Shown: piece after piece, positions 12,601 to 34,100 of the stretch
Layout: each line of letters begins with the position of its first letter
Numbering within the stretch: position 1 is the stretch's first letter
Origin: Anadara kagoshimensis
Lineage: Eukaryota > Mollusca > Bivalvia > Arcoida > Arcidae
Direction: 5' to 3'
Assembly (NCBI GenBank): GCA_021292105.1
Contig: CM037868.1
Span: forward strand, 28,540,139 to 28,604,138
DNA length: 64,000 bases
The notes under the pieces: model-generated
Seen by the model: only the letters and a program-made list of their open reading frames with translations
The model's database searches: none
Told to the model about the DNA's origin: nothing
Translations under genes and position numbers: made by a program

Positions 12601-13091
12601 TTAACAATAAAATTAACATTTGTATAATATGTAATACACTTACAATATACATGTCTCTGTTAACAGTATGAAAAGTTTATGAAGGGTTAAACACTATTCA
12701 AGGTGTCTTCGATTTACAGCGATTGTTTAAAAGATAAGCCTTGGATTGCCAAACAGTATACTAAATTACCAACATGGATATTTATATATTATTCATATAA
12801 TCTTTTTAACTTTAGATTTAATATGCTACTTTTTCTGGATTCATGTAAATGTATTAAATTGATGCTTGCTAAAATTTAGGACCACATGTGATATTTGATA
12901 GTAAATATTAATTTATGAAATGTGCTTATGTCTTACCAATTTAAAACATAAAACATTTGCCTACACAGGTCTTGTTTGGAATACACTCGGTAAAAAGCAA
13001 TAGTAAAATTATTTAAGTGTGAAATGTTACTATTTTCAGAACAATCAATATTCTTCCTTCATTGACGCAGACCACGGAGCTAAGAGGTATG

Positions 13092-28100: not shown

Positions 28101-31100
28101 ATTTAAGTTGGTTAAATCATAAAATCATTACAAGCTAAAGTGCAATGATACGATAAGCTAACTTAAAATTTTTAGATGCCGGAAACGAAATGTGTAAGAA
28201 ATATAGAGACGGAAACGTATCCCGCTTGAAGATCGTGATAATCCTCTAAAGATTTAACTCTATCTTTTACATCAAAATAACCAAAAGTTTATATTTTGCG
28301 GTCACTTTTTCCGCGCTCGTGCATTCGGTTTTTAAACATACCTGTTTTTGTGAGCTTTATGTTATCACTAATTTTTTGATATTGACTTTACAGGGAAGAC
28401 ATGGTAAAGGGTCAATCTATGTGAGGGCCACAGGGAATTCCGGGGACTTCTTTGAAGACAGTTGTGCCTATGACGGAATATTGAACAGTATTGACGTCAT
28501 TTCTGTCGGAGGTTAGTAAAGATTGACGAAATACGTAATGAACAATGGTCACGTCATTCTTGTTGGAGGTAGGTAAACATTGACGAGATACGTCATTTAA
28601 ATGGTGACGTCATTCCTGTAGGAGTTTAGTAAACTTTGGCGAGATATGTAATGAACAATGATGACTTTGTAAGCATAGGCTTGCAATATCTTTGGGTCAA
28701 CAATTTATTTGTAAGCAGCTAACTTCTTTGTATAAAATTTCAGTAGTGGGAACAAGTTCAATTATAGAGTATTAATTGTCTAATTTCTGCTAGTTAAAAT
28801 ATGAAATTCCTCAAAAACTAAGGTAAAATGCCTCATGCAAAGTGTTTCTTTACCTTAATTTGGTAAAAAATATTTTGGTCCTTTGGGTATCTTTTCAAAA
28901 TTTGTTTGGTCTAAGCACTACTGATGAGGAATTGTATTCCGAAACGACCGTCTAGTAACTGCAATCGCAGCTAACTTTACCATAAGTACTTTTGCATGTC
29001 AACCGATTCAATGTCCCTGTATTTAATTAACATTAGAATATGACAAAAAATTATCAAATTTTAAACTATTTAAGAAATGAAATTCTGCTCATGGTATTGA
29101 AGAGGTAATGCAAGATAGTGTGTCATTCGTAGCAGTAAAAATCGCCTAATTTTCACAAAAATAAACAAAACTATGAATAATTTCATGCGTTTCAGCACCA
29201 CATCAATAACTTTTACTATGATAATTTTATAAAGAACAATTCTTGACGTTGACGTCAGCCTTACGTTACTTGTTAACAGTGGATTCTTACGTCATCCACC
29301 ATCATTGCTGGGAAAAACAACACTGTCTGTGTGAAATAATTGAGCTGAATCTGTTAAATTTCTTGTTATATTCTAGACACTTTTCTATGTAAATTAGGTG
29401 ATTTTTACTTTCACGACCATAGTTATTACAGTTACAATTTTTATCATGATTTATTTGCAGGTATGTTACGAAATGGATCCAAAGTATCATCTGGTGAAGG
29501 ATGTAGTGCTATATTAGTGTCCGCCTTGACTAAGGAACCCAATGACAAGAATAACAACATAGTACGTACGCTTGTTATACATGTATCTGTTCATGTTGTA
29601 TTCCATTTAGGGTTTACTTTGGAAAAATGTAAACGATTGCGTTTATTCAAGTAAAATTACTCCCCTTTCAAAGATGACAGTTCTTATGAGGTTACATGGA
29701 TCAAACAGCACGAAATGTAATATTCTTCTACTGCTATTTATCAAAAAACAAACATACTTATCCATTTCCGAATCACAATCCAGAAGCAAAGTAAAAACTT
29801 TGGAACTGACAAGTTAGGTTAGACACGTGAACTTCCACCAGGGAAGTGAGGCCGGGTGCTCCGGAAGGGTAAGCACCTCCTGTTTAGCTAGCTACACCCG
29901 TCACGTGTGTTATCAAAATTGTGTGAAAGGAACATGGAATTATGAGACGTCAAATATATCCAAGGCAATCCTGGACACAGAGACATCAAACTTATCAACA
30001 ATACTGTGATGACGGCCATAAAACTTTTTGAGGGCCTTGATAAGCCTAGGCTTGCAATATCCCTGAGTCAACAATTTATTTGCAAACATTTTATACCACA
30101 CAGATAATGCTGAGTAAAAATAATCACATCATGTTTCTATATAAAATGCCAGATGAGATCTGAACACAGCAAAAATATAAGAAGCTTGTCGTTTTTAGAG
30201 TTCAAAAATATCAAAGTCATCACTTTATCTTTTGCATTTTTGATTTTATTTTGTCATTTTTATTGTAATACTATTTTATGTTTTTATCATATTGATTTTT
30301 GATGTTTTTGTAGCATTTGAAATAATATAAAACCTGTTTCATATAACTATGTGACCATCTTCCTTTGATGAAACAAGGTGTATTTTAAATATATAAGCTA
30401 TACAACATATAAAGGGTAATTACTCTTTTTGTGACTACTAAATATATACTCTATTACATCTTAACTTTATGTGAAAATTGTATCCGATGTAAAATTTTAA
30501 TTTGACCTTAGATATATATTTAAGAAATAAATAAAATAAAAAACAAACATACGAACCCATGTTCAAATCACACTTCAAAATCAAAGTACAAACCCCGAAA
30601 CTGGCCGATTAAGTCGTACAATATTTATATGTCGTACTTTTCATTCTGAAATATATGTATTTATTTATGCAGTTGACTGCCGATGGGAGATATGGCTGCA
30701 CTACAGACTACGCTAGAAATTCGGCAGCTGTTGCCATGGTGTCTGGTAGTATCGCCCTGGCGCTTCAAGCTAAGTATGACAATTATAGTTATGATATATT
30801 GAATGACAGCAGATCATTAAAAGTAAAAAAACACACATTATTATTAAAACAAAACTGAAAAATTAAAGATAGTAAGAAAAAACCGAATGACGTCCAAAAG
30901 TCATATTCCAACAGTTCATTATCGTAGTAGCGTCTCTACTTCTTAGATAAGCTGTGACGTAGACAGTACATTATATTTCAATCTCGTACAGAAAAAAAAC
31001 CATTGAGCGTTGAGACATCAAAACCATCTTAAAGCTACTACCGAACCATAAATTGCACTGTATATAAATACACAATTATTTTTAACGTTTGACCTGATGA

Positions 31101-34100
31101 CATAAATCATGTTGAGAGAGATTGTTTTGATGGTTTACTATGTGTTACGTTAAATTATTCAACTGTGTAGCCGTCCATCCAATAGTGCTTACTAATAAAT
31201 TCCCTATTGGAGGTAAAATGTGACTTTGACCTTAGATGAATATCAAGGTCAACCTACTTGATGGTTTTATGCATCCTGAAGTTTTTAGCATCTAGTGTAA
31301 AATATGCTTAAGTTAACGACAGATGTTAAAACCCAGTAGGTCATCAACCACCCGCTGCTGTTAAAGTACGTCTTTTGTTGTTGACGCTGCCAAATTATTC
31401 AAATAATAAGCTAAACGCTTATGTTCTGCCAAAGGATATTAATTTTCTGTTGTATCTTTAAATGTAGCATAAAAATGACAGCAAATCTTCTCAATAAACT
31501 TATTGTATAAGATAATTACGATGCTTTATTATGAAGATAAAGCCGGGGATTAAAAACCTTATTTGGGGTATCTAAAATTAACAGTTATATTTCATATTTT
31601 AGCCCAAATTTAAGATACAGAGATGTAATGCATTTACTTGTGAGAGCTTCAAATGGGACGTTACCATGGTCACACTATTATGATCAGCAATATGGTTTTA
31701 AGAAAAACGCCGCTGGATTCTTTGGTATTTAATTTTCATAATTTTCATGTTAGTAGAATTTTTGAATTTTGCACACCATGTTCCGGAATGTTATTTTCAT
31801 ACTTACAATTTTTATCTATATTTATAAATCAGTAAGTCACAACCAACAAAAACCCTTTCTCGCCAATTCAAATTTTATTACCATATACAACTTTACATTA
31901 AAATAGCTTTTTAAACGGATAATGAAACATAACAGGAGCGAGAGATATATGATAATCTCGGATGGTTTGTTTACATGGTTTCATGACTCCATCTTGTGGA
32001 TTCTCGTTTATCGTACAGTAAAACGTGAACCTGTCATGTTTCAAATTTTATCACCGATGTTGCATGTTGTGAGAAATATAATCTTGTATTCTATTTGAAC
32101 AATCCTGTTGACAAGACTATTCCAAAATTGAACAAGGTACTTTGAATTATCAAATAATGAAATCAAACACAACAATATGTATATATAAACAAACCACAAT
32201 TAATCAAAAAAAAAAAAAAAGAAACGTAAACATTTTGAAACTAATCTAAAAAGTTGAACTTCCATCAGGTAAGTGAAAGCGGGTGCTCCAGACGGGTAAA
32301 CAACTCCTGACAAGCTGCTTTTTAAATACCTTTGCACGTATATTTTAACGAATACCAGGATTAATTACTGATTTCTATGAAATGTCTTATATAATGATTG
32401 TTTTCATTTGATTTTTTACCAGCGTCATATTATTTTGGGTTTGGACTTCTCAATGCTGGCAATCTAGTTGATTTAGCTGTGACATGGCAAAATGTTCCTG
32501 ACTTGAAAACGTGTGTGTGTACTGTTACTGAACATAAGTAAGTAATCAGGGGCCTTATTACATTCAAACATGTACACATTTTAATTATCAATCAAAAACA
32601 AAAATACTAATCCATGTCCAAACCACAATCCCAAAGCAAATTGTTAATCTTGTGAATTAGTTTTAAAATTGTTTTAATTGATCTGACCATTAACAGGTGT
32701 CTATAATTATTTATACTTTATGTTTTAATTGATCTGACCATTAACAGGTGTCTATAATTATTTATACTTTATGTTTTAATTGATCTCACCATTAACAGGT
32801 GTCTATTATTATTTATACTTGATGTTTACAGCCGTTGTGATGTTGAAAACTGTGAGATTGATTATATGGAACATGTACAATTACAAATAGACATAAATTA
32901 CAGCGATTCCAGTCATTTAACAATAGATTTGATATCACCAAGGGGAACACATAGTACAATGTTGCCAGGACGACCATATGATGCAAGATCTTCTCTAAAA
33001 ATGAGTGTTACCAGCGTTCATTTTTGGGGAGAAACTCCAAATGGACAATGGAAAATGCAATTTGGAAAATATAAGAGCAACAACCAGCCTTATGGTAATA
33101 TTATATCTTATATTGGAAATGTAAAGAGAAATATGATCTTTACGTCTTAAAATTAACAAGTTAGACTTTAAATGATCACCACGATTTGATATGACTTAAG
33201 TTGAGCAAATCTAAACTTGCTGGGATCAATACGACCCAGCTAGAAAACGAGGCAGAGCAATTACAAACCGAGTGAAAAGTGAAGTTACATTTAAACGAAG
33301 AACACTTATAAACTTCCCGGGGGTAGTCGGTTATTTGTTATTTAGGTTGATGTCTAATATCAATTAGTATAATTAGAGCATAAACATAAAAACTAAAAAT
33401 ATTCAAATTCATTGCATATTACATTAAATATTATTTTCATTATAATAATTATAATTTTACACCCATGTAGGTATATTATTCAACAGAATATCTCTCACAG
33501 TTTATGGTTACTCAATAAGAGGAGGTAAGATGTTATTTGTTAGACAAACTACACTGACCTGTCCGCTTGACCTTTGATTTAAAAAATCATTATTAACGAG
33601 TAAATTTAAGTAATAGGTATCATGCGTATATATATCGTCTATCAAAAACAAACATACTAATCCATTTCCGAATCACAATCCAGAAGCAAAGTAAAAACTT
33701 TGGAACTGACAAGTTAGGTTAGACACGTGAACTTCCACCAGGGAAGTGAGGCCGGGTGCTTCGGAAGGGTAAGCACCTCCTGTTTAGCTAGCTACACCCG
33801 CCACGTGTATAATCAAAATTGTGTAAAAGGAACATGTAACTATGAGACGTCAAATATATCCAAGGCAATCCTGGACACAGAGACATCAAACTTATTAACA
33901 ATACTGTGATGACGGCCATAAAACCTTTTGAGGGCCTTGATAAGCCTAGGCTTGCTATTTCCCTGAGTCAACAATTTATTTGCAAGCAGCCTACTTAGTT
34001 GTACAAAGTCCCCGTAGTGGGAACAAGCTCTACCATAGCGTATTAATTAAACAAATACACAATAAGCAGGAGAAGCAGGTATATTGACAATAGAAAAATT

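Follow-up and report, generated by a model that had tools for sequence, protein, structure and literature searches.

A probable truncated retrozyme copy with a hammerhead core in an intron of a bivalve furin-like gene

Introduction

Conserved intronic hammerheads of amniotes were reportedly described by de la Pena and Garcia-Robles in 2010. Conserved intronic hammerheads also stand as a precedent in the accessible part of another source (PMC7761336). Animal genomes hold a second group of hammerhead carriers, the non-LTR retrozymes. In the parts of Cervera and de la Pena (2020) available to us, these elements are described as tandem repeats of 150-450 bp that carry type I hammerheads, are low in GC and have no LTR, and their RNAs of ~170-400 nt occur in both linear and circular form (PMC7229834). 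Mussel retrozymes are given there as ~5,000 copies with units of 350-390 bp, and cleavage at ~0.1 per minute persists in mussel hammerheads that lack most loop-loop contacts. For the axolotl, the same pages report 6% cleavage of a hammerhead monomer in an hour, and amphibian hammerheads are described as acting as dimers (PMC7229834).

Earlier work has put forward Penelope-like elements (PLEs) as the helpers of animal retrozymes, according to the accessible portions of two of these sources (PMC7229834; PMC7761336). As far as the available text of a lizard PLE study goes, PLEs have a 'tail' of 30-40 bp, and the tail ends of the lizard element coincide with internal RNA sites where reverse transcription starts; the same text states that hammerhead cleavage was not required for insertion in vitro and that no RNA-seq reads ended at the hammerhead cut site (PMC11167929). 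Here we compare with these systems a hammerhead motif found in Anadara kagoshimensis, in a 64-kb stretch of DNA that was analysed as a whole and is called the window below.

Results

A hammerhead motif in an intron of a furin-like gene

The motif lies within an intron of a furin-like gene, in the orientation of the sense strand, as the first-pass annotation had proposed. The surrounding parts of the gene are:

28394-28511, + strand: upstream furin-like exon with a GNSG stretch (putative acceptor position)
28512-29460, + strand: host intron of the furin-like gene, 949 nt (GT..AG ends; flanking reading frames)
29461-29570, + strand: downstream furin-like exon (3' end approximate; no catalytic residue seen)

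Joined as one query, the translations of the upstream, downstream and serine exons match furin at E 6.4e-13, with the GNSG of the upstream exon aligned to furin GNGG, and a proprotein convertase P-domain falls within 32758-33150 (E 8.2e-15). Pfam searches with the single exons nearer the motif gave no match above cut-off. The annotation had also placed the motif between two catalytic exons, which is only loosely right: the exon from 29461 has no catalytic residue, and the serine exon is the next one, at about 30670-30790 (+). This serine exon reads YARNSAAVA against TGTSASAP in furin, the serine being kept and the adjacent residues altered, which could mean that the protease is changed or inactive. 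The segment 28492-28665, which straddles the exon end and the intron start, is made up of about three tandem repeats of a ACGTCATT-rich unit of 57 nt. Elsewhere in the gene, two near-alike stretches reading VRHVNFHQGSEAGC... (29818-30009 and 33718-33909, +) are probably copies of another interspersed repeat.

Read from the sequence, the motif is composed as follows:

28917-28956, + strand: type I hammerhead motif as a whole (also found by the sibling covariance model)
28917-28920, + strand: ACTA, 5' strand of helix I
28921-28927, + strand: CTGATGA of the core
28928-28940, + strand: stem II, GGAAT/TGT/ATTCC
28941-28944, + strand: GAAA
28945-28950, + strand: stem III, CGACCG
28951 and 28952, + strand: T and C, the end of the GTC triplet
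28953-28956, + strand: TAGT, 3' strand of helix I

All the letters and coordinates claimed in the first-pass annotation (CTGATGA, stem II, GAAA, stem III, GTC and ACTA/TAGT) are correct, and its assignment to type I is upheld: a ribozyme-like motif with the type I hammerhead layout is confirmed in the protease-gene intron. CUGAUGA, GAAA and the NUH triplet are all present in the right order, and the cut is predicted between 28952 and 28953. A loose core pattern finds one match in the 64 kb, compared with a mean of 0.03 in shuffled sequence (3 of 100 shuffles had one), and the site reaches 61.9 bits (E 1.2e-13) with a covariance model made from 53 sibling copies, the window copy left out. The check suggested by the annotation, a search with the Rfam hammerhead models, gave one of the two outcomes that the annotation had named as refuting: there was no hammerhead match in the whole window at gathering scores, nor over 28800-29100 at E 10. 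Since intact siblings are missed too, this result is not diagnostic for the site; among seven sibling loci searched with Rfam, L002 alone matched a hammerhead, with four matches that reach 17.9 bits where the gathering score is 34. The Rfam hammerhead model can therefore miss a whole high-copy animal family. Left to fold freely, the 81-nt stretch around the motif does no better than shuffled sequence (z 0.51) and does not form a hammerhead.

The motif belongs to a high-copy repeat

We used 161 bases around the motif to search the 1.1-Gb assembly from which the window comes and obtained 1,660 first-look candidates, 40 of which were scored; all 40 matched, being the window itself and 39 others at 82-89% identity. 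Genome-wide, a strict core pattern (CTGATGA-N13-GAAAC-N4-GTC) has 8,160 matches versus 1 for the reversed control. Five cores each are found in the tandem arrays L002 and L010, where they recur at a spacing of 325-339 nt, which gives a repeat unit of ~338 nt. The window itself holds two copies:

28773-28956, + strand: truncated copy, from unit position 135 to +4 past the cut; 80.8% identity
40889-41124, - strand: second, more decayed copy; 77.9% identity over 240 columns, 70.8 bits with the model

The identity of the first copy is that with the L002 array unit over 208 columns, and weaker similarity in the pairwise alignment may extend back to 28740. In the second copy stem II is broken and GCC replaces GTC, and the tail is present. 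A possible tail-only fragment of the repeat lies at 12608-12635 (+), right after a furin-like exon that contains VVDDG; blastn gives it an E of 3.6e-4, and the covariance model a weak E of 0.19.

Applied to 20 loci, the sibling model gave 33 matches. Of these, 28 reached 82.8-134.5 bits, many of them having served to build the model; the window copy (L001) scored 61.9 and four others 16-36 bits. None of the 14 pairs in the 53-copy alignment changed on both sides, the copies being too alike for covariation to judge the structure. In one grouping, changes in 5 of 312 cells of the core and 43 of 862 in the neighbouring columns (p 0.007) were suggestive of slower change in the core; once secondary copies were dropped, 3 of 234 against 24 of 647 (p 0.08) no longer were.

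The motif is the 3' portion of one copy of a repeat thousands strong, a context not visible to the first-pass annotation, and does not appear to be a dedicated host ribozyme. As read from its sequence, the repeat family has the anatomy of animal non-LTR retrozymes, with a type I hammerhead in tandem repeats that fall within ~150-450 bp (L002, L010), many dispersed copies (the 8,160 core matches) and PLEs in the same genome (reading frames of L075 and L082).

The core is intact in most siblings

We also searched with a query free of ribozyme sequence (window bases 28740-28900), which gave 1,819 candidates; 40 were scored and 30 fetched, one of them the window itself. Read by eye, CTGATGA, GAAA and GTC stand in order in 25 of the 29 siblings obtained in this way, and every one of the 29 continues beyond the cut into GCTGTAAAAT-like tail sequence; these siblings are not all independent, as some share arrays. 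With 25 of 29 ribozyme-blind siblings keeping the core, the intact core of the window copy is unremarkable, and it survives because most copies of like age retain theirs.

The window copy is truncated just past the cut

The homology of the window copy ends 4 nt past the cut site. For a count of 3' ends we used copies detected only by sequence upstream of the cut (145 hits) and set aside five hits whose ends fell over 15 nt short of the cut, as well as three at locus edges. Deduplication left 82 distinct copies, 13 of which continue into a further unit, while 69, including the window copy, are terminal. Ends between +35 and +41 past the cut account for 56 of these 69 terminal copies, and the window copy is the sole one to end before +17, in a count that under-samples decayed copies because many loci were first found via the ribozyme. 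Two further terminal copies (+42 and +48) resemble copies followed by more repeat sequence.

The window copy thus has neither the tail nor the 3' side of helix I; four helix I pairs remain, compared with seven in the siblings, the other three having been lost by truncation. The missing outer stretch of helix I pairs in the best fold of 3 of 10 siblings (L002, L006 and L034). The first-pass description of an intact-looking ribozyme suits the core, but not the molecule around it, where these parts are absent and stem III departs from the palindrome of most siblings.

Predicted folding of the window copy

A 4-bp helix I, a 5-bp stem II and a minimal stem III can be drawn for the window copy; its free fold differs, and the predicted pairing probability of helix I is 0.019, whereas the median of the 53 siblings is 0.919 and 37 siblings reach at least 0.5. 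In ten of the 53 the value equals that of the window copy or falls below it, and helix I pairing therefore does not set this copy apart. The bare hammerhead helices are worth -1.0 kcal/mol in the window copy and -8.9 in 8 of 10 siblings, the other two standing at -6.5 and -1.3. Forcing all stems costs the window copy 5.2 kcal/mol relative to its best free fold, compared with 3.2-4.5 for nine siblings and 6.8 for one, from which we take the folding handicap to be real and not large.

The commonest form of stem III is the palindrome CGGCCG (33 of 53 siblings), which suggests by its anatomy that the ribozyme would be suited to act as a dimer. The window copy has CGACCG, common to 6 of the 53, for which the predicted self-pairing is -0.5 versus -10.7 kcal/mol for CGGCCG, and pairing between the two forms is -3.5 kcal/mol. 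On these models, efficient cutting of the convertase pre-mRNA by the window copy is unlikely; any cleavage that does occur would, judging by the structure, be slow at best.

Penelope-like elements in the same genome

GIY-YIG and RVT_1 domains share one frame in L075, both above cut-off, and one frame in L082, where RVT_1 is below cut-off. The PLE family L074-L076 bears a hammerhead-like motif of its own (CTGATGA..GAAAC..GTC). We read 15 of its ends, i.e. 14 picked from 40 hits and L076 itself: 10 continue into the element, and the 5 true ends lie +63 to +68 past the cut of that hammerhead. The end point of the search near query base 248 is partly an artefact of the query, which is flanked by non-PLE sequence. 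Retrozyme insertions have a near-fixed end ~37 nt past their cut, and the tails of the two families therefore differ in length (~+37 versus +63 to +68). Among the other loci of this animal assembly, L069 (contig C22) carries a UvrC-like gene of bacterial type (UvrC RNase H domain, E 3.9e-31); the contig is possibly that of a symbiont or a contaminant.

Discussion

We interpret the site as a non-LTR retrozyme insertion, truncated at its 5' and 3' ends and decaying, that is most likely passive in the convertase pre-mRNA, and we give this reading a probability of about 0.85. It is carried by the repeat family, its copy number and its arrays, by the truncation of the window copy and by its weaker predicted pairing, all of which the present analysis shows. 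From the anatomy of the repeat and the published work on coral, mussel and axolotl we infer the following life cycle. Tandem units of the retrozyme would be transcribed, each hammerhead in the transcript would cut after GTC, and the resulting monomers of ~338 nt would be joined into circles, which the reverse transcriptase of another element would copy into new sites. The window copy sits in the intron without all that lies beyond +4 past the cut, hence without outer helix I, and folding models suggest that it is now a passive intron fragment with little or no self-cleavage. Arguing against this reading are its intact core nucleotides, the ten siblings with helix I pairing equally low or lower, the modest folding gap, the presence of CGACCG in 6 of 53 siblings and the ~0.1 per minute quoted above for mussel hammerheads with few loop-loop contacts (PMC7229834, in part).

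Food for speculation is which enzyme might move the family. The near-fixed end of the retrozyme insertions resembles the 'tail' of PLEs, and it is conceivable, at somewhat less than even odds in our estimate, that the family is moved by Penelope-like machinery, with reverse transcription starting at a single internal point ~37 nt past the cut and leaving the fixed tail. Since a cut monomer stops at the cut site, the template must in that case be a circular or an uncut multimeric RNA. We did not find this comparison of retrozyme and PLE tails in the limited literature accessible to us, where the word 'tail' has no occurrence in the main texts of PMC7229834 and PMC7761336 as available; it may nonetheless have been published. 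If true, movement by PLEs would point to the helper of animal retrozymes, so far a proposal, and the near-fixed 3' end gives a concrete test of which enzyme moves them.

Other explanations were weighed. The stretch could be part of the terminal repeat of a PLE instead of a retrozyme, given that type I hammerheads occur in PLEs and that PLEs with RT and GIY-YIG domains are present in this genome, including a family that bears a hammerhead. We regard this as quite improbable: the units of 325-339 nt in the L002 and L010 arrays leave no room for a protein, the hammerhead of the PLE family examined (L074-L076) differs in sequence, and L075 and L076 gave no match to the retrozyme model.

Equally improbable in our view, if not slightly more so, is an active intronic hammerhead that has been kept or co-opted to cut the convertase pre-mRNA and so tunes splicing or dosage, as proposed for amniotes. 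The analysis gave no support to the cutting of the pre-mRNA that the first-pass annotation had suggested. The intact core, the sense orientation and the location in an intron would fit such a role, and conserved intronic hammerheads offer a precedent (PMC7761336, in its accessible part). Set against this are a helix I cut down to 4 pairs with low predicted pairing, siblings that usually have an intact core as well, and the nature of the site as a solitary copy of a high-copy repeat. Finally, a chance resemblance in unrelated intron sequence, compatible with the lack of an Rfam match at the thresholds used and with a free fold no better than that of shuffled sequence, is refuted by the 8,160 core matches versus 1 in the control and the 80.8% identity to the repeat over 208 columns, in addition to the mean of 0.03 matches expected per 64 kb and an Rfam miss common to intact siblings.

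The truncated retrozyme copy that we favour finds its closest counterparts in the non-LTR retrozymes of coral, mussel and axolotl (Cervera and de la Pena 2020, PMC7229834, in the parts available). In both, a type I hammerhead sits in tandem repeats that are short, AT-rich and apparently non-coding, copies number in the thousands and the genome also holds PLEs, a likeness of anatomy; the mussel unit of 350-390 bp compares with ~338 nt here. Unlike those tandem retrozymes, the window copy is solitary and truncated. The hammerhead repeats of newt and axolotl (~330 bp) resemble the present family in a helix III that is very short and ends in a palindrome, here CGGCCG in most siblings; they differ in genome and unit and from the CGACCG of the window copy (PMC7229834, same parts). 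PLE hammerheads are also of type I, and insertions of these elements stop at a near-fixed distance beyond the cut; they differ in being minimal and in residing in elements that code for RT and endonuclease, whereas the retrozyme repeat is non-coding, judging by its unit length (PMC7761336 and PMC11167929, as far as accessible).

In itself, the window copy is a broken copy of a known kind of element and of modest interest. Nonetheless, one candidate gene-regulating ribozyme is probably removed, and a solitary intact core in an intron is what is to be expected where retrozymes abound. With the conserved intronic hammerheads of amniotes the site shares a hammerhead core within an intron; it differs from them in that its motif is one of thousands of repeat copies.
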